Positions 43,000-56,120 are shown, counted from the stretch's first letter. The stretch: 64,000 nucleotides of DNA from Candidatus Baltobacteraceae bacterium (GCA_036488875.1 DASXGW010000010.1:1-64000), one strand, 5' to 3'. Numbers and translations are program-made. Notes: generated by a model not told the origin, from the letters alone.

Positions 43000-45900
43000 T
43001 TAGTGAAAGTTGTGCGAGGCGACGCCGCGAGTGATGCCCTCCGAGTCGAAACTCCAAAAGCGCTGAGCGAGCAGATCGATGCAGCCGCCCTCCTTTTGAA
43101 GCTTCCCTTCGATCACGAGTACCGGCGACGTGCGAATGACGCGGCGATACTTTTCGTAGACGTCGGGACGCACGATCACGTTGACGATACCGGTCTCGTC
43201 CTCGAGCGTTAAAAAGACGAAGCCTTTAGCGGTTCCCGGCCGTTGACGCGTGATCACCATGCCGCCGACGCGGCAGACGAGATTGCGCGGCTGATCGCTC
43301 AACCGCGCGGCCGGAATGACGCGGCGCGCGTCGAGCTGCGCACGAAAGTGCGCGATCGCGTGCTCGTTGGGCGTCACGCCGGTCGACCAAAGATCGAACG
43401 CGGTCGCTTGCTTCGCGGTAACCGGCGCAAATCGCACCGGCGGTTCGTCGACGTCCATTAGTTTGCCGAGTTCGCCGCGGGCCTCACGCTCGTCGAGAGC
43501 ACGCAGCGCCCACATAGCGTCGCGGCGCGACGCAAACCAGGGAACGAACGCACCGGCGACGGCAAGATTCTCGATCGCCTCTTTCTCGAGCTGCGTGCGC
43601 TGCGCGAAGTCGAGAATGTCGCGAAACGCACCGCCGGCAAGCGCCGCCTCCAAACGCGTACGCTGCACGTCTCCTAATCCGCGCACCAGATGGAATCCCA
43701 AACGCAGTGCACCTTCGCCGTCGACGTGCGACCAATACTCGCTGGCATTAACCTCGACCGGCTTGACCGCAACGCCGTGCCGCCGCGCGTCGTTGACGAG
43801 CACTTCGGTCGAATAAAACCCCATCGGCTGCACGTTGAGAATCGCCGCCGCAAAGATTGCCGGATGGTGGCATTTCACGTACGCCGACGCGTACGCCAGC
43901 AGCGCAAAGCTCGCGGCGTGCGATTCGGGGAATCCGTAATCGGCAAATCCTTCGAGCATGTGGAAGAGCTGCTCGGCGGCCGCGCGATCGATGCCGTTAT
44001 TGACCATGCCCTCGACCAGGCGCGGATAGATCTCGTTCATGCGTTCGTGCGAGCGCTTGTGCCCCATCGCGCGGCGCAGCTGGTCGGCCTCTCCCGGCGT
44101 AAAGCCGGCCGCCTCGATCGCCATGCGCATTCCCTGTTCCTGAAAGAGCGGAACGCCCAGCGTTCGTTCCAGCACGTTCTTGAGTTTGGGATGCGGATAC
44201 GTCACCGGTTCGAGCCCGGCCCGGCGCCGCAAGAACGGGTGGATCATCTGGCCCTGAATGGGACCTGGCCGAATGATCGCCACCTGCATCACGATGTCGT
44301 AGAAACATTCCGGTTTCATTCGTGGCAGCATCGATTGCTGCGCGCGCGATTCGATCTGAAAGACGCCGATCGTGTCGGCCTTCTGAATCATCGCGTAAGT
44401 GGGTTTGTCGTCCGGAGGGATCGTGTGCAGGGCTAACGGTTTCTGGTGAACCCGCTCGTGGATGCCGAACGCTTCGCGCAGCAGTGAGAGCATGCCCAGG
44501 CCGAGGAGATCGATCTTGATCAGACCGAGCTCTTGAAGGTCGTCTTTATCCCATTGAACGATCGTGCGGTCGCGCATCGTCGCCCATTCGACCGGAGCGA
44601 CGCGGATCAACGGATCGCGCGTGATCACCATGCCGCCGGAGTGGATGCCCATGTGGCGGGGGAAACCGTCGATACGCTTGCAAAGCCACGCCAGATTCTC
44701 GCCGATGCGCGGCTGCAACGTCGCCGCAGCTTCTTCGAGCGACTCGCGCGCGTCGAGCTCGCGCGCCAGCACGTCGACTTCCTCTACGCTCAAGCCGAGC
44801 GCTTTGGCGACGTCGCGCAGTGCCGAGCGCGTTCGATAAGTGATCACTTCGGCAGCCATTGCCGCGTTGGCGCGGCCGTAGCGCTCGTAAATATACTGAA
44901 TGACCTTTTCGCGGTCCTGATGCGCGAAATCGATATCGATATCGGGAATTTCCTTACGTTCTTCCGACATGAAGCGTTCGAAGAGCAGCTTCATGCCGAT
45001 CGGATCGACGGCGGTAATTCCCAGCGCGTAACAGACCGCCGAGTTTGCCGCCGAGCCGCGGCCCTGGCACAGCACGCCCAGATCCTCAGCTTTACGCACG
45101 ATATCCCAGACGATCAAAAAATATCCGGCGAGATCCATTTTGGCGATGATGCCGAGCTCGTAATCGAGCTGGCGCTCAACGTCGGACGAAAAAGGCGTGG
45201 CGTAGCGTTCGGCAGCGCCGCGATAGACGAGCTCCCGCAGATACGACTGGCGCGTGTAGCCGTCGGGAACGGCGAAGAGCGGAAACTGTCCCACCAAACG
45301 TTCGAGCCTGAAACGACAGCGCTGCGCGATGGCGATCGTTCGTTCGATCGCTTCGGGATACGGCTCGAAAAGGCGCCGCATCGTATCGGGCGACTTCAAA
45401 TGGTATTCGGCATTGGGACGCAGATGGTGGTCGGCGCGGGCGCGCTCGAGCGTCGTGCCGAGTTTCACGCAAGTCAGCACGTCGGCGACGGCGGCGTCGT
45501 CTTTATACGCGTACGCCACACCGTTGGTCGCCACGAGCGGTACGTGCAGCTCGCGCCCAAGACGCACCAGCCGTTCGTTCCGCTGCGCTTCGGCAATCGT
45601 CAGGTGCTGCTGCAGCTCGAGATGGAAACGATCGCCGAAAATCGCGATCGATCGCCGCACTTCTTCTTCATCCACCGTTTGAGAGAGCGCGATCAAACCG
45701 TCGCTTCGTCCGGTCAAGTCGGCGAGTTCCAAGCGTGCGTTGCCCTTGCTGCCGCGAAGCTGGGCGATCGAAACGAGCTCGCAAAGGTTGGCGTAGCCGC
45801 GTTCGTCTTCGACCAGCAGCACGATGCGCGCGCCGCCGGTAACCGTGAGCTCGCTTCCCACGATGGCGCCGATGCCGCGCATGCGCGCGCGCGACGCGAA

Positions 45901-46053
45901 TCGTACGGCACCGTACAAACCGTCGCGATCGGTCAGCGCGACGGCTGCCAAACCTAAAGCGGCGGCACGATCGACGAGTTCTTCGGGGTGCGATCCGCCT
46001 TCTAGGAAGCTAAAGTTGGACCAGCAGTGTAACTCTGCGTAAGCGGGCTCAAT
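43000..46053 (-). CDS. dnaE2: Error-prone DNA polymerase DnaE2
   Basis: About 1017 residues. C-family translesion polymerase of the SOS mutasome. PHP domain at the start (A-E-L-H-C-W-S-N-F-S-F-L-E-G-G-S-H-P-E-E-L), palm aspartates in I-P-D-I-D-I-D-F, C-terminal OB fold G-M-V-I-T-R-Q-R-P-G-T-A-K-G-F-V-F-L-T-L-E-D-E. It lacks the tau- and clamp-binding tail length of DnaE1. No ATG, GTG or TTG stands in frame near the expected N-terminus. The only initiator at the right place is ATT at 46051-46053, overlapping imuB's stop as ATTGA, with GAGG eight bases upstream. The next in-frame ATG upstream would add about 40 residues from the imuB shadow. Confidence 0.92.
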   Translation of the reverse strand: MEPAYAELHCWSNFSFLEGGSHPEELVDRAAALGLAAVALTDRDGLYGAVRFASRARMRGIGAIVGSELTVTGGARIVLLVEDERGYANLCELVSIAQLRGSKGNARLELADLTGRSDGLIALSQTVDEEEVRRSIAIFGDRFHLELQQHLTIAEAQRNERLVRLGRELHVPLVATNGVAYAYKDDAAVADVLTCVKLGTTLERARADHHLRPNAEYHLKSPDTMRRLFEPYPEAIERTIAIAQRCRFRLERLVGQFPLFAVPDGYTRQSYLRELVYRGAAERYATPFSSDVERQLDYELGIIAKMDLAGYFLIVWDIVRKAEDLGVLCQGRGSAANSAVCYALGITAVDPIGMKLLFERFMSEERKEIPDIDIDFAHQDREKVIQYIYERYGRANAAMAAEVITYRTRSALRDVAKALGLSVEEVDVLARELDARESLEEAAATLQPRIGENLAWLCKRIDGFPRHMGIHSGGMVITRDPLIRVAPVEWATMRDRTIVQWDKDDLQELGLIKIDLLGLGMLSLLREAFGIHERVHQKPLALHTIPPDDKPTYAMIQKADTIGVFQIESRAQQSMLPRMKPECFYDIVMQVAIIRPGPIQGQMIHPFLRRRAGLEPVTYPHPKLKNVLERTLGVPLFQEQGMRMAIEAAGFTPGEADQLRRAMGHKRSHERMNEIYPRLVEGMVNNGIDRAAAEQLFHMLEGFADYGFPESHAASFALLAYASAYVKCHHPAIFAAAILNVQPMGFYSTEVLVNDARRHGVAVKPVEVNASEYWSHVDGEGALRLGFHLVRGLGDVQRTRLEAALAGGAFRDILDFAQRTQLEKEAIENLAVAGAFVPWFASRRDAMWALRALDEREARGELGKLMDVDEPPVRFAPVTAKQATAFDLWSTGVTPNEHAIAHFRAQLDARRVIPAARLSDQPRNLVCRVGGMVITRQRPGTAKGFVFLTLEDETGIVNVIVRPDVYEKYRRVIRTSPVLVIEGKLQKEGGCIDLLAQRFWSFDSEGITRGVASHNFH

Positions 46054-47314
46054 CGTAGTTGCCTCGCAGATACCACTGCGTTCCCTGGCGATAAATGCGA
46101 TAGAGTTCGCCGTCGTCCAATAATACGTCGTACTCGTCGCGAACGACGTACGCATCGGAGAACCACCCGATCTCAACCCGCCACGGGCCCGAGCACTCGA
46201 CGACGGCGCGCGGCGGCTTGGCATCCAATCCAACGGCGGCGGGTTCGCCGTTGCGCACGCGAACGTCGATTTCGGTAACGGCTAGTAATCGCAACTGCGG
46301 AACCAGCGTTTCGCACGCAAGCTGCGAACGCTTGTCGTTCATCGGCTCGCGCTTGGGCGCGACGTATGGGTCGTAGGCGAAGCGCTCTTCGAGCACGTGC
46401 GCGCTGCGCGTGCGAGCTCGCCGTACCGGCTCGCCGAGCATCGCTTCCAATCGGGAAATCGCCACGGCGATCGCTTGCGGATCGAAATCGCCGTCGGCGA
46501 AGAGCGCAACCTTCTCGCCGCCTTCTTCGAGCCGCACCGCGCGTAAGCGCAGCCCGACGATGGGCGCCTCGAAACGTACCCCGTCGAGCTTTGCGCGCAC
46601 GACGTCGAGCATGTCGCGTTCTCGAATCGTCGGCGATGCCAGCAGCACGTCGAAGCACCGGGTAGCCGCGTCTTCGAGCTCGACGTCGAGCTGCAGCGAA
46701 CCGGCGCGCTTTCCGCACCGTTCTAAATCCGAGCAAATTCGAGAGAGCAGCACGCGCAGCGCAAAGATCACCTGGGCCTCGTCGTCGGCTCTTCCCTCGC
46801 CGAACATCGTCGCTTCGATCGCAACGGAGTGGGCGCGAGGAACCAATGGTGCCGGATCCCGGCCGCACGCGCAAGCGTGCCATCTCGCCGCTTCCGGTCC
46901 GAAACGGCGAACGAACGGTCCGTGAGGCATTCGCGCGAGATCGCCGATCCGCTCGATTCCCAAAAGACGCAAACGCTGCACTATTTTGGGGTCGATGTCC
47001 AGCAGCTCGAGCGAAAGCGGCGCGAGAAAGCCGCGCTCTTCGCCGGCGGGGCAAATCGTGCCGTTGCCAACGGATGCCGCGGCACGCGCGCACGTTTTAT
47101 TGCTTCCGATTCCCAGCCGTGCGTCGAGAACGAACGGCGCGATCGCTTCGCGCGTACGCCGCATCCATTCGACCGGAGTTCCCGGACTGCCGTGCATATC
47201 GACAAACGCCAACCCGGGGCGCGCGTCGTCGATCAGCGGCGAGACGGCATCGAGCGCGTCGAGCAGCTCTTCCCACGACGGGAGCTCCGCACTGGCGCTA
47301 ACACACAGCAGCAC
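46049..47314 (-). CDS. imuB: ImuB-like Y-family polymerase homologue
   Basis: About 421 residues from a GTG at 47314 (an ATG at 47386 would overlap imuA by 89 bases). Y-family architecture: L-A-F-V-D-M-H-G, L-G-I-G-S-N-K-T-C-A-R-A-A, helix-hairpin L-L-G-I-E-R-I-G-D-L-A, and a little-finger region. The paired catalytic acidic residues at the first strand are absent (V-L-L-C-V-S-A-S replaces the D-x-D-x-F-F-A-S pattern), as in ImuB proteins, which act as clamp-binding adaptors for DnaE2, not as polymerases. Middle gene of the imuA-imuB-dnaE2 cassette. Confidence 0.87.
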   Translation of the reverse strand: MLLCVSASAELPSWEELLDALDAVSPLIDDARPGLAFVDMHGSPGTPVEWMRRTREAIAPFVLDARLGIGSNKTCARAAASVGNGTICPAGEERGFLAPLSLELLDIDPKIVQRLRLLGIERIGDLARMPHGPFVRRFGPEAARWHACACGRDPAPLVPRAHSVAIEATMFGEGRADDEAQVIFALRVLLSRICSDLERCGKRAGSLQLDVELEDAATRCFDVLLASPTIRERDMLDVVRAKLDGVRFEAPIVGLRLRAVRLEEGGEKVALFADGDFDPQAIAVAISRLEAMLGEPVRRARTRSAHVLEERFAYDPYVAPKREPMNDKRSQLACETLVPQLRLLAVTEIDVRVRNGEPAAVGLDAKPPRAVVECSGPWRVEIGWFSDAYVVRDEYDVLLDDGELYRIYRQGTQWYLRGNYD

Positions 47315-47993
47315 GTGCCACCGCCCGCTTTTCGAAAGCCGCGGTTCGATGTTTGCGAACCTCGGCGCAAACGTCGTAGCCGGCAATCGTGCACCACACG
47401 CCGCGCTTTCCTACGATCTCCAGCCGGCCGCGGGTACAGTAGAGCCGCACGGCGGCAGCCGCCGCAAGCGGCGCGAGTCGCGCAGCTGCAGCGTGCGGGG
47501 GCGCAACGGCAACGAGCAAGATGCCGGTGCGATGTGCCAGTCCGGCCAAACGCATCCAAACCGCAGCGCGCAACTCGGGAACGGGCACGAGTACCAAACG
47601 GCACGCCTTGGAGCGAATCAGGACGTCGGCCGCTCGCGCGACGCTCAGCGGCGACTGCGCGGGAACGATGAGGACGCGTTCCAATCGCGCGCCCGAGCGC
47701 GCCAAGTCCGGCGGGTATAACGCGCCGTCGTCGACGATTGCGGCAGCGGACCGGCGGGTCACCGAGGCCACGAGGCTGGCGGCAATGCTCCAACGGCCTG
47801 CCGGCCCTTCGAGCGTGACGAGCGAGCCCCTGGGGAAACCGCCGCCCAAGACCCGGTCGAGGGCCGGAACGGCCGAGGGAATTAACGACTCGACCCGAGG
47901 GCGGGGGGCGGCGAACGCAGCGTTATCGAGGTCCGCTTTTAGGGCGGCAAAGGCGGTATGGCGGGAGGGGGAAAGCTGACTCGGCATCGCCAT
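47298..47993 (-). CDS. imuA: ImuA-like RecA-fold protein
   Basis: 231 residues. RecA/SulA-related first gene of the SOS mutagenesis cassette: S-A-V-P-A-L-D-R-V-L-G-G-G-F-P-R-G-S-L-V-T. The Walker A position reads G-P-A-G-R-W-S, so the nucleotide-binding Lys is lost, a common sign of ImuA/SulA-type non-ATPase RecA homologues. C-terminal part ends R-A-A-V-C. The start is 14 bases from the SOS operator at 48007-48024. Confidence 0.85.
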   Translation of the reverse strand: MAMPSQLSPSRHTAFAALKADLDNAAFAAPRPRVESLIPSAVPALDRVLGGGFPRGSLVTLEGPAGRWSIAASLVASVTRRSAAAIVDDGALYPPDLARSGARLERVLIVPAQSPLSVARAADVLIRSKACRLVLVPVPELRAAVWMRLAGLAHRTGILLVAVAPPHAAAARLAPLAAAAAVRLYCTRGRLEIVGKRGVWCTIAGYDVCAEVRKHRTAAFEKRAVARAAVC

Positions 47994-48006
47994 GGGAAAC
48001 CATGGT

Positions 48007-48024
48007 ATCGAACATATGTTCGAT
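48007..48024. promoter_or_regulatory. LexA operator (SOS box) of the imuA-imuB-dnaE2 operon
   Basis: ATCGAACATATGTTCGAT is a perfect 18-bp palindrome with the GAAC-N4-GTTC core of the LexA box found in Gram-positive and several other phyla. It sits 14-31 bases upstream of the imuA ATG (47993), where repressor would block transcription. It lies in the short gap after the convergently placed end of the 48042-48953 gene. I found no second copy in the window. Confidence 0.88.
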
Positions 48025-48041
48025 AGTCAAGGGCGGCGCCG

Positions 48042-48953
48042 CTAGTTCGTCTTTTTGGTGCTCACCGGCGAGTTGGAGCACAGCGCGGCGCTATCGAGCA
48101 CCGATTTCGCCGCATCGTTTTCGCGCTTTTGCGTCTCGCCGATCGTCCAGTTCAATCCCTCGAGCAGGCGCGTGACCGGATTGTAGCCCAGCGTCAAACC
48201 CGGAACGTTCGCGAGATCGATGCTATAGGGATTTTGCGGAAGTCCGGCTTGATTCGGATTACCGTACAGTGGGTTTGGCGACGGAGTCCCGTACTGGTGC
48301 GAACTCGTGAAATCGCTGTGCTGATTGACCGACTCGATGTACTCTTGGCCCGAGTGCTGGAGATCGGCCATCTGTTGCGTATCGACGAAGCCGCTGATGA
48401 TATCGAGCGAGGCCTGCTGAGTCGCCAGCGCTTTGAGCAGTTTCGCGCGAATGTCGGCAAGATGCGCGTCGTCTTCGGGAGTTCCCGAGCCGTGCGTCAG
48501 CTCCGGAGAATCGAGAATCTTCTCAATGGCGATCGCGTTGTTGGCGATCGGACCGATCAAGTTTTCCATTCCGAGCAACGCCATGTTTTGCGACGGGTTG
48601 AGGAGAGTCTGGGCAGCACCACCGGTCGAGGGAGACCCTGGATTGTAACCGGCGTTCGCGCTCGTGCTGTTGTCGACGCCGTAGAGGCCGGCTTGATTAT
48701 AACGCTTGAAGAGGTCGGGGCTCTTGCCAATGGTGCGATCGCTTTGCAGCATCATGCTCAAGGCCGGGGCTATGTGCTTGTGCAGTTCGCTGCACAACGG
48801 CCGAGTAATGATGTGATAGATCTGCGGAGGAGGCGTCCGCGTAGCAGCGGGCGCGGGAGTGGGAGCCGCCGCCGCGGCCGTCGGGGAAGCGGGAGCGATC
48901 GTGGCGAGCGCTACGATCAGCACCGCGGGGAGAGCCTTGTACATCCCTGCCAT
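48042..48953 (-). CDS. Secreted protein of unknown function
   Basis: 303 residues; GGGGGAG precedes the ATG at 48953. Signal peptide followed by an Ala/Pro/Thr stretch (T-P-A-P-A-A-T-R-T-P-P-P). Mature part helical, with L-C-S-E-L-H-K-H-I-A-P-A-L-S-M-M-L, I-G-P-I-A-N-N-A-I-A-I-E-K-I-L and a Gln/Asn-rich middle. Ends A-L-C-S-N-S-P. Two cysteines, which could pair across the protein. I do not recognise the family. It is the last gene of the same-strand block starting with blaI, 50 bases after the DOMON protein. Confidence 0.7.
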   Translation of the reverse strand: MAGMYKALPAVLIVALATIAPASPTAAAAAPTPAPAATRTPPPQIYHIITRPLCSELHKHIAPALSMMLQSDRTIGKSPDLFKRYNQAGLYGVDNSTSANAGYNPGSPSTGGAAQTLLNPSQNMALLGMENLIGPIANNAIAIEKILDSPELTHGSGTPEDDAHLADIRAKLLKALATQQASLDIISGFVDTQQMADLQHSGQEYIESVNQHSDFTSSHQYGTPSPNPLYGNPNQAGLPQNPYSIDLANVPGLTLGYNPVTRLLEGLNWTIGETQKRENDAAKSVLDSAALCSNSPVSTKKTN

Positions 48954-49003
48954 TCTACTCCCCCAACGGCTGTGGAGGCCTGCTTGTTACGCCTGAGCTT
49001 TGG

Positions 49004-49615
49004 TTAGTTTTTGCCAACCGCGCTGGCGAGCGAGAGCGTGCCGGCCTGAGCCAAGTCGTCGGCCGTCTGGCCGCCGTCGTGCGACCAAAGTTGCAGTTCG
49101 CCGGTCGACGAGAGCCACCGCGAGAACTGTACGCGTGACGACGATCCGAGCACGTCGAGCGGAATCTTCATCGTCACCGTATAGCCGCCGCTGTACGATG
49201 CGGCCGCGGTGTCCCACCCGGCAGTATTGGCGGTGCTGTCGTCGGTGTGTTTGCCGTCGAGACCGACGCCCAGGTGATATCGCTGGCCCGTGCTTCCGCC
49301 GGGCCAAAGGTCGATGGCGACCGAATCGCCGCCGGGCAGACCGACGAGTTGTTCGCTTTGCGGAACGTCGAAGCGCACGTAGAGCGCCGAGTTATCGCGC
49401 ACGACGTGAACGTCAGCGGGCTCGGCGACGCGACCGCCGGACGAGTCGAACGCGAGCGTTGCGCTGCCGGCCTTACCAAATGCCGACGGCGCGTGCGGAT
49501 CGAGCGACGGTGCTGAGGCAACTATTGGAACGTCGAGTGAGGTCGCTGCAAACGCCGGTGCTGCGCTCATCGTTATACTCAATGCGCCGGCAAGAGCGAG
49601 AATGGAACGTTTCAC
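49004..49615 (-). CDS. Secreted single-domain DOMON/CBM9-like protein
   Basis: 203 residues: signal peptide (M-K-R-S-I-L-A-L-A-G-A-L-S) and one beta-sandwich domain. The domain matches the N-terminal domain of the neighbouring DUF5916 protein: L-Y-V-R-F-D-V-P-Q-S-E, V-A-I-D-L-W-P-G-G-S, G-G-Y-T-V-T-M-K-I-P-L, F-S-R-W-L-S-S-T-G-E-L-Q-L-W-S. It looks like a copy of that domain without the barrel. The fold binds carbohydrate or haem in other proteins; no ligand can be assigned. Confidence 0.78.
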   Translation of the reverse strand: MKRSILALAGALSITMSAAPAFAATSLDVPIVASAPSLDPHAPSAFGKAGSATLAFDSSGGRVAEPADVHVVRDNSALYVRFDVPQSEQLVGLPGGDSVAIDLWPGGSTGQRYHLGVGLDGKHTDDSTANTAGWDTAAASYSGGYTVTMKIPLDVLGSSSRVQFSRWLSSTGELQLWSHDGGQTADDLAQAGTLSLASAVGKN

Positions 49616-49743
49616 GATGGTACGATCTCCTTTGTCGATGAGTGTCGTTTAGTTGGCACATGTCTTTCGATCGATCGCGACATGTACGAGGGTTCGATGG
49701 CGGTGTTTCACGATGCCAGCGCGGTGACACAGCGCGACGTCAA

Positions 49744-51870
49744 TCACGTTCCCTTCTCGGCACCGGCGTAGAAGATCACTTTTACGAGAGCTTGGGGGAC
49801 GGTTACGAGCGTATTTGGATTGCCGTACGCGACGTACAGCTCTTCGTTACGCAAACGGAGGTGATAGGCTATCGATACGTTGGAGCAGGTTCCCATGCAG
49901 TTACCGCCGCCGTTGGGATCCGGCGGATAGCCGACGACGCGGCGAACGCCCACGGCGAACGAGGAATCCGACGACACTTGATACGAGTACGAGACGCCCT
50001 CGAACCATTGCCGGTTGTCGCTGCCGTGCGAGAAATACTGAGCGGTATTGTCGAGCGTGAACGTCAGTGCGCCGCGGCTTCCGACCCGAATCGTCGAGTT
50101 GCGGAACCACGTGTCGAGGCGCCCGTTGAGCCCGTAGTTTCCGGTATAGTATTGAATCTGGGTCGGCGTCGCCGACGATCCGTGGGTCGGGAAGTTATTC
50201 ATGTTGTTCTGCATGCCGCTGTGAAAGGTCAGCGAGAATCCCGCATTTTGCGATAGCGGCTCTAAGAGCGTTCCGAATCGCCAGTAGTCCGATCCGGAAA
50301 ATAGCTGCAGATCGATGGTATTTTTCGTCAGGATGTCGATCAGCGCTTGATTGTCGCTCTGCGCGATACCGTACTGCGGACCTTGGTAACGATCCATGAA
50401 TCCCGAAACGCCGACCGACGAGAGAAAGTCTTGGGGTGCTAACGTCCAGACGCGCGCGCTGTACAGCGCGTATCCCGCGATGCCGGGATGCGAGTCGAAG
50501 CCGTCGACGGGATTGAACTGCGAACCGACGCTGCGCATCGATCCAAAGAGCGCGAAGTGCTGATTGCCCCAGCCGGTACCCGCGTCCCACCAGGTCGCCT
50601 GACCCGGATTGGTTACCAAGGTTCCGGTTTCGTTGGCATAGTTTACGTACGCGCTATAGTACTTGCCGTTGAACCAATTCACACCGACTTGGTTGGTGAC
50701 GTCGACGACTCCGGGAACGTCCGCCACGACGTGCTGGAGCGCCCCGTTCCACTGCGTGTTCGGGGACGTATAGTTGAGCGCGCTGGCGGCGTCGGTTCGT
50801 CCGTCGCCGATCGCATCGAAGGCTGCGAGTCCAAACTCGCCCTGACGCCCTTCGAAGGCGTAGCCCTGCGCCGGCGTCGGAATCGCCGGCGTGTACAGCG
50901 TCGTGCGAAAACCGTTGCAGACGTTGCAGTTGAACTGGTTATAGTAGGGTGCCGATTGCGTGAAGAACGGCCGTACTTCGCTAAAGACGCGAGGAAAGAC
51001 GGTCGGAGAAATCGACTGCTGATCGATCTCCACGTCGGAGTAATCCGGGTGGAACGTTCCAAAGAAGGCGGCCGTCTGCGCCACCGGCACCGACCAATCG
51101 GCACCGACGCGCGACGTCGATCCGCCCGCCGACGAACTCGCTATCGAACCCAAGCCGTAGATACCGACGCGAGGCTTGGGAAGCGGCGCGCGCGCGACGA
51201 TGGGCACGTTTACGTAACCCGCGCGCATTGGATCGTCCGGATTGGTCTGAGCCGAATCGTACGACCACACGTTGAGCTCGCCGCTGGACCGAACGTAGCG
51301 CACGAACTGCATCCGCCACGTTCCCACTTTAGCGCCGTGAACGACCCTCATCGGAATCGCCATCGTCACGGTGTAACCGCCGGCCGTGCGCGTGCCGTGC
51401 GTCTCCCACTGCGGCGAAAACGCGGTGTTCTCGCTGGAGTACTCGTTGTGCGCGCCGATCGGGTTCGATTCGAACTGGTACTGAAACCCTGCGGCGCCGG
51501 TCGGCCAGAGGTCGACCCAGACGGCGTCGTCGCTCCAGGCGATGCCGCCGCCGATGTTGGCGCCGCCGGTAACCGTGTCGTTGCTGTGCTGATTGTCGAC
51601 GATCGGCTCGGACTGCTTGGCCTCGAACCGGACGTAGAGAAACTTGCCGTCGGTCGTCACGAGAACGTCGGTGGCGTCTCGCGCCGGCTGCGCGTGCCCG
51701 ACGTCCCACGTCAGCTTGACGTTCGTGGCCTTATCCCACTGCGACGAACCGCCTCCGGCAGTCGCCGGGGCAGCGAGCTCGGTGACGGCGATTTGCGGAT
51801 ACGTGGCCGCCAGCGCGCCGCTTGCCGTATACGCAGCCAGCAGCGCGGCTAGAGCGATCGATCGCTTCAC
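49744..51870 (-). CDS. DUF5916-type outer-membrane protein with N-terminal CBM9-like domain
   Basis: 708 residues from the GTG at 51870, which overlaps the upstream TGA (GTGA). Signal peptide (K-R-S-I-A-L-A-A-L-L-A), then a CBM9/DOMON-like domain (about residues 25-215: L-Y-V-R-F-E-A-K-Q-S-E, A-V-W-V-D-L-W-P). The DUF5916 region follows, with F-H-P-D-Y-S-D-V-E-I-D-Q and F-S-E-V-R-P-F-F-T-Q-S, then Tyr/Asn/Gly-rich alternating strands to the end, consistent with an outer-membrane barrel. A C-x-x-C pair (C-N-V-C) sits in a loop. Members often accompany surface glycan handling; no enzymatic role is known. Confidence 0.83.
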   Translation of the reverse strand: MKRSIALAALLAAYTASGALAATYPQIAVTELAAPATAGGGSSQWDKATNVKLTWDVGHAQPARDATDVLVTTDGKFLYVRFEAKQSEPIVDNQHSNDTVTGGANIGGGIAWSDDAVWVDLWPTGAAGFQYQFESNPIGAHNEYSSENTAFSPQWETHGTRTAGGYTVTMAIPMRVVHGAKVGTWRMQFVRYVRSSGELNVWSYDSAQTNPDDPMRAGYVNVPIVARAPLPKPRVGIYGLGSIASSSAGGSTSRVGADWSVPVAQTAAFFGTFHPDYSDVEIDQQSISPTVFPRVFSEVRPFFTQSAPYYNQFNCNVCNGFRTTLYTPAIPTPAQGYAFEGRQGEFGLAAFDAIGDGRTDAASALNYTSPNTQWNGALQHVVADVPGVVDVTNQVGVNWFNGKYYSAYVNYANETGTLVTNPGQATWWDAGTGWGNQHFALFGSMRSVGSQFNPVDGFDSHPGIAGYALYSARVWTLAPQDFLSSVGVSGFMDRYQGPQYGIAQSDNQALIDILTKNTIDLQLFSGSDYWRFGTLLEPLSQNAGFSLTFHSGMQNNMNNFPTHGSSATPTQIQYYTGNYGLNGRLDTWFRNSTIRVGSRGALTFTLDNTAQYFSHGSDNRQWFEGVSYSYQVSSDSSFAVGVRRVVGYPPDPNGGGNCMGTCSNVSIAYHLRLRNEELYVAYGNPNTLVTVPQALVKVIFYAGAEKGT

Positions 51871-52613
51871 GGAAGAATGGCTCCCGCTAAATCGGAGTGC
51901 GCGTGCGCGCGTAGGGTTGCGGCATCGACCGGCGTGCACTGCTTATGCTCGCAGAGCAGAGCGCCGCGCAGGTCGGCGCCGTGCACGTCGGCACTCTCAA
52001 ACGAAGCGCAACCCACTTGGCGATTTACCGTAACGCCGCCGACGACGTCGGTATTGTAGTTGCACAGCCGCGCGTTGCGCAGGTCGGCATTACGAAGGTC
52101 GGCGCCGCGGAAGTTGACGCCTTCGAGATCGGCGCCTTCCAACCGAGCGCCGCTTGCACGCGCGCCGCGCAGATTGCCGCCGGGGATCCCAATCCCGTCG
52201 AGATTGCGACCGGAAAGATTTGCGTCGCTCATATCGCACCCCGCGCATGCGTGCAGCAGTCCGCGGACGTCTGCGTCGGAGGCGCCGTCGAGAACCTCGC
52301 GTAAGTCGACGCCCGCGAGCTCGGCCGTTTCGAAACGCGCGCCCGCAATGCGCGCGTTACGCAGGCTGATCCCTGCGAGATGCGCGCCGCTAAAGTCCGC
52401 GCCTCGCAGATCGGCGTCGTGGAAGCTCGCGCCGGCCAGATCGGCGTCGCGGAAGCTCGCGTTACGAAGATCGGTATGGGCGAAGCTCGCGCCGACGTAT
52501 TTCGTGTTCGAGAGATCCGCGCCGCGCAGATCGCGGTTCGCAAACGAACATCCCACGCAGTTCGACGGCAAACCCGTAACCAGAGCGAGGACTACGGCGA
52601 GGATGGAGATCAC
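51867..52613 (-). CDS. Secreted pentapeptide-repeat protein
   Basis: 248 residues from the GTG at 52613 (AAAAGGAG, 6-base spacing). Short signal peptide (I-S-I-L-A-V-V-L-A-L-V-T-G), then almost all A(D/N)LxG-type pentapeptide repeats forming a right-handed quadrilateral helix. Cysteine pairs C-V-G-C at the start and C-A-G-C in the middle (after L-L-H-A) are placed like those in the M56 protein's solenoid. Later single cysteines follow, one in a longer non-repeat loop. Function unknown; relation to the sensor upstream is discussed in the findings. Confidence 0.82.
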   Translation of the reverse strand: MISILAVVLALVTGLPSNCVGCSFANRDLRGADLSNTKYVGASFAHTDLRNASFRDADLAGASFHDADLRGADFSGAHLAGISLRNARIAGARFETAELAGVDLREVLDGASDADVRGLLHACAGCDMSDANLSGRNLDGIGIPGGNLRGARASGARLEGADLEGVNFRGADLRNADLRNARLCNYNTDVVGGVTVNRQVGCASFESADVHGADLRGALLCEHKQCTPVDAATLRAHAHSDLAGAILP

Positions 52614-52707
52614 GTTAGGCTCCTTTTGGCGATCGAGAGGGACGCGGGGAACCAAGCCTCTGCGCGAGGCTCCAATTTCAGGCAGTTAAGGTACCGAGTA
52701 GCGGGGT

Positions 52708-54798
52708 CTAAGGTTCCGGGCTTCGGCGAACCGAAAAATCCGTACCGATCATTTTCGTTTTCGAGAGATCGACCCGGCTCAGATCGACGCCGCTGAGGTC
52801 GCAACCGTTGAACGTCGTTCCGTCGAGCCGAGCGCCGTCGAATTTGGCGCCGCTGAAGTCGTCGCCGACGAACTCCGAGCCGCTCAAGTTTGCGCCGCTC
52901 AGGTTCGCACCACTAAAATCGATGCCGCTCGTTCTTACGCCGGAAAGGTCGATGCCGCTTAGGTTGGCCTTGCTGAAGTCGCATCCGGTGCAGGTGTTGA
53001 GGATGGCACGGATTTCCGACGAGGTCATCTGCGCTCCGGTGAACTGGCAACCCGAGAGCTTGGCACCGCTGAAGTCGGTATCGACCAGATTGGCACCGGA
53101 GAAATCGCACCCCACGAGCTGCGCGTCGTGGAACTTGGCACCGCGAAGGTTCGCGTGAGTGAAATCGACGCCGCTGAGGTGACTCGACGAGAAGTCGGCT
53201 CCCTGCAGATTCGAGTTGCTCAAATCGACGCCCGTGAAGTTCCGGTTGCGCACGTCCTTGCCGGCCCAGTTGGCGCCGGAGTAATCGCACCCGCTGCACT
53301 CCCCAAGCGCGCTCTGCGCAACCATGCGATGCAAGGGCATGCCCTTGAGCGTGCTTTTCACGATCGAGTCCACGTCGACGTGCGGAATCGCAAAGTTCAT
53401 CGCCGGTACGTGAACGTTGGCGGCCGGAACGCGAACGTCGATCTCGGGCACGCGAACGTTGGTCTCGGGCACGTGAACGTTAGTCGCGGGAACGTGAACG
53501 TTGGTCGCGGGAACGCGAACGTTGGTCGCGGGAACGCGAACGTTGGTCGCGGGCATGGCCGGCAACGGCGGAGCGCTGCGGAAGACGATGATCTTCTGGA
53601 TCTTCGGAGCCGGCACCGAAACCGCCACGACCGGCGGCGGAATCGATAACGCCTGCAGACACGGTGCTGCAACCGACGGCGCGACCGCCGCGATGGCAAG
53701 CGACAGCGTTGCGACGATCGCGATCGCGATGGCAGCCGGACCGATCGCCAGCGTCGTGGCGATGTTACGGCCCGCGCCGAGGAGGCGCTCGATGCGCAGC
53801 GAGATATGCTTGCGCGTCGCGAAGACGCCGGGCGCCGGAATCGGCTGGCGCGGCCACGCCGACGTTTCGGCCATCTTGGTCAAGCACATCGCGTAGGGAC
53901 GCACCGTTCCGGTCAGCGAGAGCACCCAATCGTCGCACGCTACTTCGCGTTCGAGATCGAGCTGCTGCGAAACGAACAGCGCGGCGGGATTCCAGGCCAG
54001 CAGCGCCAGCGCGATGCGCTGGAAACCGTTCGTCCAGTCGTCGCCGCGGCGCAGATGCGCGAGCTCGTGCAGGCTGATTTGATCGACTTCCGTTGCGGAC
54101 AACAGCTCGAGCAGCGAACGCGGTATCAGGATCATCGCATCGAACAGGCCGACCGCAACCGGAACGTCGGTCTCGTCGCTCACGCACAGGCGCACTTCGC
54201 GCGAGCCTTTATTCGCGCGCGCCCAGCGGTCCATCGCGTCGCGGTACTCTAAGGGAAGCGGTAAGGCGTCGCGTTTGAGTTGCTCGAGCCGCACCAGACC
54301 GATCGCCAGGCGCACCAACGCGACGAGTGCCAGAACGGCCCAGAGCGCGAACACACCGATGGCGAGGGGGAGGGGGAACGTCACGCGGAAACGAGGCGGT
54401 AGCGCGGCCAGCTGCGCGGTGCTTTGCGCCGGCGTTGAAGCGGGCTCCAATCGGGTGGTGAGGGCGTGCGTCACCTTGGGCGCCCTCCCCACCCGCAGCG
54501 CCTTCGCCGTGGTTTTCGGCGAGGACGAGGTAGTCGCCGTCGAGGCGGTTGCCGTCGAGGGCGTGCTCGGGGTCGTAAGCGTGAAGAACGGAAGCGTCGT
54601 GGCGATCGGAACGATCACGACCGCCGCCAATGTGGTGCACCAGATCGCGTAACGCGTCGACGCGTTGATCTGCGGCCACGTGCGAACCAGCAGCCAGACG
54701 GCCACCACCAGCAACGGCCCTTCCCACAAGGCGTTCAGAACGACGGCGGCGATCGGCGAGGCGATCGCGTTGAACGTGTCGACGAGAGCGGCAAGCAT
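52708..54798 (-). CDS. M56 (BlaR1-type) membrane metalloprotease fused to pentapeptide repeats
   Basis: 696 residues. Three N-terminal transmembrane helices (about residues 10-40, 50-75, 145-170) precede a cytoplasmic M56 protease domain with the zinc motif H-E-L-A-H-L-R-R-G-D-D. A fourth transmembrane stretch rich in Ala/Ile (about 340-375) leads to the outside. Next are about eight 7-residue repeats of the T-N-V-(R/H)-V-P type, then a 215-residue pentapeptide solenoid with C-S-G-C and C-T-G-C. BlaR1/MecR1 carry a penicillin-binding sensor here; this one carries a repeat solenoid instead. Its start overlaps the blaI stop (TAATG), so it is co-translated with its presumed substrate repressor. 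Confidence 0.88.
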   Translation of the reverse strand: MLAALVDTFNAIASPIAAVVLNALWEGPLLVVAVWLLVRTWPQINASTRYAIWCTTLAAVVIVPIATTLPFFTLTTPSTPSTATASTATTSSSPKTTAKALRVGRAPKVTHALTTRLEPASTPAQSTAQLAALPPRFRVTFPLPLAIGVFALWAVLALVALVRLAIGLVRLEQLKRDALPLPLEYRDAMDRWARANKGSREVRLCVSDETDVPVAVGLFDAMILIPRSLLELLSATEVDQISLHELAHLRRGDDWTNGFQRIALALLAWNPAALFVSQQLDLEREVACDDWVLSLTGTVRPYAMCLTKMAETSAWPRQPIPAPGVFATRKHISLRIERLLGAGRNIATTLAIGPAAIAIAIVATLSLAIAAVAPSVAAPCLQALSIPPPVVAVSVPAPKIQKIIVFRSAPPLPAMPATNVRVPATNVRVPATNVHVPATNVHVPETNVRVPEIDVRVPAANVHVPAMNFAIPHVDVDSIVKSTLKGMPLHRMVAQSALGECSGCDYSGANWAGKDVRNRNFTGVDLSNSNLQGADFSSSHLSGVDFTHANLRGAKFHDAQLVGCDFSGANLVDTDFSGAKLSGCQFTGAQMTSSEIRAILNTCTGCDFSKANLSGIDLSGVRTSGIDFSGANLSGANLSGSEFVGDDFSGAKFDGARLDGTTFNGCDLSGVDLSRVDLSKTKMIGTDFSVRRSPEP
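53401..53556. repeat. 21-bp tandem repeats in the M56 gene
   Basis: Seven or eight copies of a 21-bp unit built on GCGAACGTTGGTCGCGGGAA encode the T-N-V-(R/H)-V-P spacer between the last membrane helix and the solenoid. Nearly identical central copies suggest recent expansion and possible length variation. Confidence 0.75.
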
Positions 54799-55181
54799 TA
54801 TTGGCCCTCCTCGTACTGCTCGATGAGCGCCTTCAGACGAGTTAGTTCGTCGCGCGAAGGCTTCTCGTTCTCGATCAAGCGTAGCGCGAGCTCGCCCGCG
54901 CTGTTGTCAAAAAACCTTGAAAGGACGTGGCCCACGGCGTTTTGAGCCGCGGCTTCCCGTTCGACTAGCGGACGATAGATGAACGCCCGGCCGGCCTCTT
55001 CGTGCGCGACGTAACCCTTCTGCTCCAGAATGCGCATGGTCGTCAGAACGCTGTTGTAGGCGATCGGCGGGGGCGGCAGCGCGGCCGTCACTTCCGCGAC
55101 CGTCGCTTGCCCTTTTTGCCAGAGCACGTCCATGAGCCGCAGCTCCGCTTCCGTAAGGGTTGTCGATCGTTTCCGAGCCAA
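54798..55181 (-). CDS. BlaI/MecI-family repressor
   Basis: 127 residues: L-T-E-A-E-L-R-L-M-D-V-L-W, A-T-V-A-E-V-T-A-A-L, A-Y-N-S-V-L-T-T-M-R-I-L-E-Q-K-G-Y-V and a C-terminal dimerisation helix with a hydrophobic F-F-D-N-S-A-G-E-L-A. In bla/mec systems the partner M56 protease triggers cleavage of this repressor, releasing its own operon. The pair here is in the same order and translationally coupled. Start ATG at 55181 with AGGAGGT upstream. Confidence 0.92.
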   Translation of the reverse strand: MARKRSTTLTEAELRLMDVLWQKGQATVAEVTAALPPPPIAYNSVLTTMRILEQKGYVAHEEAGRAFIYRPLVEREAAAQNAVGHVLSRFFDNSAGELALRLIENEKPSRDELTRLKALIEQYEEGQ

Positions 55182-55200
55182 AACGGGATACCTCCTAAGA

Positions 55201-55245
55201 AATTAGTTGTATCCTACAGCCTTTAAGCCCGGCTGTCAACTAATT
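55201..55245. promoter_or_regulatory. Candidate BlaI operator region
   Basis: AATTAGTTG (55201-55209) and CAACTAATT (55237-55245) are perfect inverted arms. Between them is TGTA-TCC-TACA (55208-55218), a short inverted element of the TGTA/TACA type BlaI/MecI proteins recognise. All lie 20-64 bases upstream of blaI. Autorepression is the expected mode; the exact half-site arrangement is not proven by sequence. Confidence 0.6.
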
Positions 55246-55347
55246 CCTTAAGGGGCTACCCGGAGCAGCCCAGCTCTTTCGCACGGTCGCTGCACGGCAG
55301 CGGGTTACGCTGCCCCGAGATCACCCGTTTCCGAAGGAGACCCACCC

Positions 55348-55794
55348 ATGATTCTTCGACTGGGAGCCGCGCTGGCCGCGCTTGCGCTTGCATCGGCATG
55401 CGCGCATTCGTCCCCGCCATCGAGTGCGACATCGCAATCGTCCGCGACGTCACCGTCGTCGGGCGCTCTCGATGGGGTCAAGTACCGGGTCCCGCTCTAC
55501 TCGAGCAACGTAACGAGCGCCGCAACGCCGGGATTAGAACCCGGCATATACCAGTTTCAGACGTCCGACTCCGCGCCCGCCGTAGTCGCGTGGTACAAGT
55601 CGCACATCCCGAGCGACATGGGGGGCAACTGGGTCAGCAGCGATCCCAGCGGGCCTGCCGACATAACGGACTGGAGCTACGTTCACCCGCATCTAGCGGC
55701 GGGCGACTTCTCCGTAGATGTCGAGCACGCGCGAGGCAGCGTGTCGATTTATGCAACCGGCACCAAAACCATCGTCGAAGTCGTAGACCGGTGA
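55348..55794 (+). CDS. Small lipoprotein of unknown function
   Basis: 148 residues with lipobox A-L-A-S-A-C, then a Ser/Thr/Ala-rich tether. The folded part resembles a small alpha/beta domain: V-V-A-W-Y-K-S-H-I-P, V-D-V-E-H-A-R-G-S-V-S-I-Y. GGAGA precedes the ATG. The next gene shows the same V-x-x-W-Y-x-x-x-L-P core, so both may be a duplicated W-Y-x-x-x-(I/L)-P type domain. No known family. Confidence 0.68.
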   Translation: MILRLGAALAALALASACAHSSPPSSATSQSSATSPSSGALDGVKYRVPLYSSNVTSAATPGLEPGIYQFQTSDSAPAVVAWYKSHIPSDMGGNWVSSDPSGPADITDWSYVHPHLAAGDFSVDVEHARGSVSIYATGTKTIVEVVDR

Positions 55795-55799
55795 CCGGC

Positions 55800-56120
55800 A
55801 TGAAATATATCGCGCTCGCCGCATTACTTCTGGCCGTCGCGGCCGGCCACGATGGAACTCTGCCGCTCTATCCGCACGGCGCACCGGCGCTCGGGATGGG
55901 CGATATCCCGGCAAACGCATTGGCCCAAGGTGTTCCCTACCAGCAAACGACCAACGATAGCGTGGATGCCGTCGATCGGTGGTATCGAGCAAACCTCCCA
56001 AGATCGTGCAGCCGAATGAGCGCGTCGGGGGCGGTAAAGTATACGTGTCCGGGCGGAGTCATCGTGATCCAGAGTCACGGCGGAACGATCGTTTCGTTCA
56101 TCCCACCGCTTCATCCGTAG
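55800..56120 (+). CDS. Small secreted protein of unknown function
   Basis: 106 residues from the ATG at 55800. A GTG at 55791 overlapping the upstream stop (GTGA) would add three residues and hint at coupling. Signal peptide L-A-A-L-L-L-A-V-A-A. The mature part has V-D-A-V-D-R-W-Y-R-A-N-L-P with two cysteines (S-C-S-R, Y-T-C-P). It resembles the upstream lipoprotein's W-Y-K-S-H-I-P segment. Convergent with cheW, 12 bases away. Confidence 0.65.
   Translation: MKYIALAALLLAVAAGHDGTLPLYPHGAPALGMGDIPANALAQGVPYQQTTNDSVDAVDRWYRANLPRSCSRMSASGAVKYTCPGGVIVIQSHGGTIVSFIPPLHP

Follow-up and report, generated by a model that had tools for sequence, protein, structure and literature searches.

BlaR1 and MecR1 are antibiotic sensors. 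The BlaI-BlaR1 and MecI-MecR1 systems of Staphylococcus each consist of a repressor and an M56 zinc protease, the protease having four membrane helices, an HEXXH...E site and a C-terminal domain outside; the promoter is self-regulated through dyad operators, and the sensor shares homology with a secreted effector that belongs to the same regulon, that of BlaR1 being related to class D beta-lactamases (PMC9834060, PMC5957439). We analysed a window of 64,000 nucleotides from Candidatus Baltobacteraceae bacterium (GCA_036488875.1 DASXGW010000010.1:1-64000), in which six minus-strand genes, reading in one direction, form one operon: BlaI, an M56 protease with a pentapeptide solenoid, a secreted solenoid, a DUF5916-type barrel, a free CBM9/DOMON domain and ORF6 (open reading frame 6). 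The operon resembles the staphylococcal systems in the features above, the relation to class D beta-lactamases excepted; the outer position of the C-terminal domain, the self-regulation and the common regulon of sensor and effector are predicted. Unlike them, it has no beta-lactam-binding domain but a pentapeptide beta-helix on a repeat stalk, and the linked genes encode a secreted solenoid and a barrel, not a beta-lactamase or PBP2a. We favour, with moderate confidence, the reading that the locus encodes a proteolytic relay of the BlaR1 type, with a membrane-tethered paralogue of the adjacent secreted solenoid as its sensor, and that this relay controls an outer-membrane barrel.

Other described proteins resemble single parts of the locus. 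YjbI of Caulobacter (PMC12864828) is like the free solenoid in its signal peptide (putative in the free solenoid), quadrilateral beta-helix, conserved cysteine pairs and link to outer-membrane barrel composition; however, YjbI acts on two-component systems, whereas here the BlaI/M56 pair itself carries the same fold, and the free solenoid here has an internal CxGC and a four-cysteine C-terminal cap. The lumenal proteins Rfr23 and Rfr32 are also secreted pentapeptide beta-helices, Rfr23 with a Cys39-Cys42 bracket and Rfr32 with a disulfide-stabilised C-terminal cap, but a membrane-tethered paralogue or a regulatory gene is not described for them in PMC8145042. Outer-membrane proteins of the DUF5916 (PF19313)/CBM9_1 type share the N-terminal CBM9-like domain followed by a barrel, and the members studied here differ in lying in a BlaI/M56 operon or having BlaI-type operators. 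In the collection of papers that we searched, none was found on DUF5916 and none on M56 proteins with pentapeptide repeats.

The genes, their order and strand and the cysteine motifs listed in an initial annotation of the window were all present. The repressor gene (54798..55181, minus strand, as are all operon features below) has a TTG start and encodes 127 amino acids of the BlaI/MecI family, matching PF03965 (Penicillinase_R) at 3.5e-32 with 111.6 bits against a cut-off of 22.6; the CopY/TcrY and BlaI_of_BCL equivalog cut-offs were not reached. It has a conserved stretch, LALR|LIE, which we take to be the homologous place of the MecI/BlaI cleavage site. The BlaI stop and the M56 start overlap as TAATG, the median gap between these genes in relatives being -4 nucleotides, and the free-solenoid stop overlaps the DUF5916 start as GTGA; both overlaps suggest translational coupling.

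The M56 protein (52708..54798) matches PF05569 at 2.7e-28 (99.4 bits, above the cut-off) and, in the same chain, PF00805 at 3.2e-53 (177 bits). Its catalytic residues H244, E245 and H248 of HEXXH, together with E285, were invariant in the 27 sequences of alignment A1, and E285 stands 41 residues past the first histidine, the same distance as in BlaR1, where the counterparts are His201 and Glu242 (PMC9834060). In the AlphaFold2 (AF2) model, which has a mean pLDDT (predicted local distance difference test score) of 79.8, membrane helices occupy residues 2-40, 46-71, 143-177 and 352-372, and Foldseek aligned the model with the BlaR1 membrane-protease core 8exr (TMt 0.60, root-mean-square deviation 3.1). 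The protein fell far below the cut-off of the NCBIfam BlaR1/MecR1 models, and its profile search gave no class D or transpeptidase (SXXK-type) sensor family, the region being occupied by pentapeptide families. By the topology of BlaR1, the solenoid would lie outside the cytoplasm, in the periplasm.

The stalk (53400..53553) is a 21-bp tandem repeat of 7.3 copies found by TRF, coding for VPATNVH-type heptapeptides; AF2 modelled it at low-to-medium confidence with strands about 5 residues long and a period of 7 residues. The sensor solenoid spans about residues 498-690, has pLDDT above 90 in nearly every block and shows 3-residue strands every 20 residues, with Foldseek matches to 4yc5, HetL and other pentapeptide proteins. 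The free solenoid (51867..52613) has a GTG start with an AAGGAG ribosome-binding site, and its N-terminus is hydrophobic and signal-peptide-like. Both proteins have at least eight contiguous pentapeptides of a quadrilateral beta-helix, as judged from PF00805 in each (3.3e-34 in the free copy) and from a model in the sensor.

Two CxGC pairs mark each solenoid, the first where the beta-helix starts and the second about one hundred residues later. In the sensor they are CSGC at residues 501-504 (53287..53298), at the beta-helix entry, where C501 and C504 are invariant in alignment A1, and CTGC at residues 603-606 (52981..52992), directly after a helix at 593-602 that breaks the solenoid in the AF2 model. 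The free solenoid has CVGC and CAGC at equivalent positions. All 37 sensors having both pairs space them by 102 or 103 residues; in nearly all such free solenoids the spacing is 101-105, mostly 103-105. The strict pattern is not universal: one or both pairs are absent in several members, and the sensors L092, L093 and L100 have none. At its C-terminus the free solenoid bears a cap (51870..52064) whose cysteines C185, C203, C222 and C227 are invariant in alignment A2 and which unfused sensors lack.

In a tree of 57 rows, built on the solenoid segment common to both proteins, the labels sensor and free had to change 3 times, compared with 17.4 times after shuffling. The two solenoids of the window sit in separate clades, each with counterparts from other genera. 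It means that the sensor/free pair is older than the genus, and on this tree the sensor and free solenoids are old paralogues; the same tree led us to reject the idea that the window's free copy stems from a recent tandem duplication. In the lineage of L051, L053 and L057 the free copy probably arose separately, by a second duplication. At L054, L055 and L056 the M56 sensor runs unbroken into a free-type C-terminal half with its cap, and a separate free solenoid was not found at these loci. The best domain of the cap profile hidden Markov model scored 58-71 bits in these three M56 proteins versus at most 16 in other M56 proteins; a regular expression missed real caps and was dropped in favour of the profile. 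The fusion points to a functional link but does not prove contact.

The arrangement recurs among relatives, whose genes were taken as open reading frames, not from annotations. Named relatives of the window M56 protein belong overwhelmingly to Candidatus Eremiobacterota, a bacterial phylum that has been little studied. Neighbourhoods from 60 searched genomes, among them that of the window, and from 80 named contigs were deduplicated to 54 M56-solenoid loci besides the window, and co-occurrence was counted in the 44 with at least 2.5 kb downstream; these loci are mutually related and the counts are descriptive. A free solenoid was found in 30 of the 44, versus none of 39 control loci whose M56 protein lacks pentapeptides, and a DUF5916 gene in 28 of the 44 versus 2 of the 39, so that the co-occurrence proposed in the initial annotation was borne out. 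In the 28, the DUF5916 gene lies downstream in 27 and divergently in 2, one locus having both. The fused sensor form occurs in 2 of the 44 and in a third locus with a shorter flank. Because the arrangement recurs across genera, it is not a product of chance. In a lineage without DUF5916, a convergent SNF2-type helicase gene and a ClpB-like gene (ClpB named by eye) also recur and were considered as partners, but they look like synteny neighbours only.

The promoter region (55192..55255) was delimited from its sequence, a composite scan of the genome, a promoter scan and the layout in relatives. The dyad O1, CCCCTTAAGGAATTAGTTG, at 55237-55255 overlaps the -35 element TTGACA (55234-55239); the -10 element TAGGAT is at 55211-55216, and the dyad O2, CAACTAATTTCTTAGGAG, at 55192-55209 lies just past it and overlaps the BlaI ribosome-binding site. 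The whole reads TTAG-TTGACA-17-TAGGAT-ACAACTAA. The operator suspected in the initial annotation proved to be real, as the sigma-70 promoter between the half-sites scores 10/12 and the exact two-half-site composite occurs once in the 3.7 Mb genome. Nearly all relatives share the two-dyad layout, and BlaI is predicted from it to bind the dyads. The window's own genome lacks the palindrome TCAACTAAN0-4TTAGTTGA, which is found in relatives. At L039, L092 and L100, BlaI and a DUF5916 gene are divergent with a common palindrome between them, TGTCAACTAATATATTAGTTGACA at two of the loci and a variant at the other.

Similar operators stand before DUF5916 genes outside the operon. In windows of 260 nucleotides upstream, the dyad CWMYTWANNNNTTARKWG with at most 1 mismatch preceded 20 of 39 DUF5916 genes not recognised as members of an M56-solenoid operon when chosen, versus 1 of 249 control genes (Fisher p 4e-19, with related genes treated as independent); shuffles gave 0.26%, and the upstream regions of BlaI genes, as positive control, 73 of 89. 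No BlaI gene was found within 0.7 kb windows of those DUF5916 genes. Four of the 39 (L169, L188, L191 and L194) were later found near a solenoid or another M56 gene, and none of them has the dyad, as expected within operons. A stricter composite scan of the 60 genomes gave 22 matches, and the reversed pattern gave 0. By coordinate, 12 of the 22 lie at BlaI-M56 pairs, 6 upstream of DUF5916 (5 of them away from the operon) and 4 upstream of other genes, of which the three readable ones are a secreted DUF4097 protein, a small secreted gene followed by a FecR/DUF6600 protein, and a PDZ-containing protein. In the window's genome, a BlaI-type promoter-operator at G000:C1:247065 (L202:566-2408) precedes a secreted PDZ-containing protein; its second half-site resembles the promoter of the contig 13 BlaI, not that of the window.

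The DUF5916-type gene (49744..51870) encodes a signal peptide, a CBM9/DOMON-like N-domain and then barrel strands from about residue 235 to 704 in the AF2 model, whose mean pLDDT of 69.6 is moderate and whose strand count was not used as a result. Foldseek related it to TonB-dependent receptors, LptD and BACUNI_03838. The family assignment holds for its relatives, as 14 of 15 alignment members match PF19313 (best 1.7e-6) and the L092 homologue reaches 35.1 bits against a cut-off of 22.6; the window protein itself gave no PF19313 match at E up to 1 and matched CBM9_1 only, below the cut-off. Profiles of this protein and of ORF6 found no credible PDB homologue by sequence. DUF5916 also follows M56 proteins with a different sensor (L050, L060). 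The initial annotation supposed that the barrel and CBM9 proteins take part in sensing, and the evidence points the other way: DUF5916 looks like an output rather than a signal input, because it is found with different sensors and behind BlaI-type operators, including those outside the operon and those shared with a divergent BlaI in three loci.

We propose that the relay works as follows. At rest, BlaI would sit on the two dyads flanking the -35 and -10 elements of its own operon; in many relatives it may also occupy comparable dyads ahead of unlinked DUF5916 genes. Some molecule or surface of the envelope that the solenoid fold recognises would engage the tethered copy; the M56 protease, switched on through the membrane, would then cut BlaI and derepress the operon. 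The output would be more sensor and more secreted solenoid, the latter meeting the same ligand or surface and giving feedback, and more of the CBM9-bearing DUF5916 barrel in the outer membrane, which may alter uptake or surface properties.

The tethered-copy sensor is favoured because BlaR1 is built likewise, and the claim that a BlaI/M56 relay carries a solenoid in place of the beta-lactam sensor, with a homologous secreted solenoid beside it, is supported by the profile matches and the co-occurrence, its function being predicted. The main rival shares most of this evidence. It supposes a titration switch, in which the secreted solenoid is itself the signal: stacked end to end on the tethered solenoid it would hold the protease off (or on), and envelope damage that led to its degradation or drew it to the outer membrane would fire the relay and refill it. 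An unbroken extension of the sensor solenoid by a free-type half, as at L054-L056, is expected if both can stack, the cysteine cap is borne by free solenoids and not by unfused sensors, and in Caulobacter the secreted YjbI silences two envelope-stress pathways, is proteolysed and is later restored (PMC12864828). Some sensors, however, have no free solenoid, and we regard titration as rather unlikely.

Alternatively, the CxGC pairs might act as a sensor of oxidation or metal stress, through opening and closing or through metal binding, as the initial annotation also considered. The invariance of the first sensor pair, the fixed spacing and the cysteine pairs and zinc response of YjbI (PMC12864828) agree with such a switch, but the YjbI cysteines are dispensable for zinc-induced turnover (PMC12864828), and the sensors L092, L093 and L100 have no CxGC at all. 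In Rfr23 the CxxC pair Cys39-Cys42 forms a disulfide bracket preceding the beta-helix (PMC8145042), so a structural role is the simpler reading of CxGC, and a redox or metal switch seems very improbable. It is also conceivable, if improbable, that the solenoid is a mere spacer or anchor, the free copy a drifting duplicate, and that sensing goes through other parts such as the EL1 loop or the stalk. The tails of M56 proteins of the same phylum differ widely while the same DUF5916 gene adjoins in two loci, as if the tail were interchangeable; against this, the fixed solenoid spacing, the old paired paralogy and the fusion argue for selection on the pair.

Several points weigh against the tethered-copy relay. 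The free solenoid is absent at L039, L041, L047, L088, L092 and L093, and an adjacent DUF5916 gene at L042, L051-L053, L057 and L058, so neither is obligatory. Related genomes are non-independent samples, and the fused variants may have arisen by deletion, in which case they would not indicate contact. A genome may have multiple BlaI genes, three in that of the window, and the BlaI acting at a distant DUF5916 gene cannot be read from the operator alone; the second DUF5916 gene of the window's genome (C4, L198) has no dyad site, and the operator pattern was derived by visual inspection of BlaI promoters and then scored on the others. What computation shows is the gene content, the intact catalytic residues, the paralogy of the two solenoids and their old pairing, the fused form in relatives, and the layout of the operator and its presence at DUF5916 genes, whereas the topology, the binding and cleavage of BlaI, the shared ligand, the feedback and the part played in the envelope are predicted.

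The remaining operon genes encode secreted proteins. The free CBM9/DOMON-like domain (49004..49615) is homologous to the N-domain of the DUF5916 protein (A3 profile, 1.5e-35) and occurs as a separate gene only in the window and in one same-genus relative, L034. ORF6 (48042..48953), the last gene, is present in 17 loci with C54 and C292 invariant in alignment A4; it gave no Pfam match and no credible PDB match. At L069:7333-9450 and L090:9835-11928 a protein of 700 amino acids lies between DUF5916 and the last operon gene, and that of L069 is a secreted prolyl oligopeptidase (S9). The operon is followed at 43000-48030, in the same orientation, by imuA, imuB and dnaE2-like genes (named by sequence and by eye). 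Their promoter contains a LexA-like box CGAACATATGTTCG at about 48015, and such a promoter of their own makes it probable that the operon stops short of them. Divergent from BlaI, at 55348-56120, are genes for two small secreted proteins whose family was not assigned.

Other M56 proteins of the same phylum bear alpha-repeat, HEAT-like (both named by eye) or DUF4097 tails. An M56 protein with a DUF4097 tail (L068:5733-8480) and, in another genome, a secreted DUF4097 protein behind a BlaI-type operator (L200:665-1441) may represent a second sensor of the tethered-copy kind. In a Gloeobacterales metagenome-assembled genome (L127:1-1866), an M56 protein without partner genes has a long pentapeptide run and no cysteines in its tail, so pentapeptide tails on M56 also occur outside Eremiobacterota. 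As a tentative extension, possible rather than probable, BlaI/M56 relays may be a general envelope-sensing system of Eremiobacterota, in which the tail (solenoid, alpha-repeats, HEAT-like, DUF4097) has been repeatedly exchanged and is often a tethered copy of a controlled secreted protein, the DUF5916 barrel is the conserved output, and the solenoid pair stacks end to end to read the state of the outer membrane.

To our knowledge, many sequenced M56 proteins have no known signal and DUF5916 barrels have no assigned function. The present locus ties together a sensor type, its homologous secreted partner and a candidate target family, including operators at genes outside the operon, and gives DUF5916 barrels a candidate regulator. 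Genome G009, which we infer to be that of the cultured Vulcanimicrobium alpinum WC8-2, carries at L052 the BlaI-M56-solenoid pair and two adjacent solenoid genes, one with a signal-peptide-like start, with no DUF5916 adjoining. Vulcanimicrobium alpinum has a gram-negative envelope with an outer membrane covered by lipopolysaccharide (PMC9758169). If the identification is right, a cultured relative has both sensor and free solenoids, and these parts of the relay could be tested in it. The comparison with BlaR1 suggests a common design rule, in which a secreted effector has a tethered copy that serves as the sensor.
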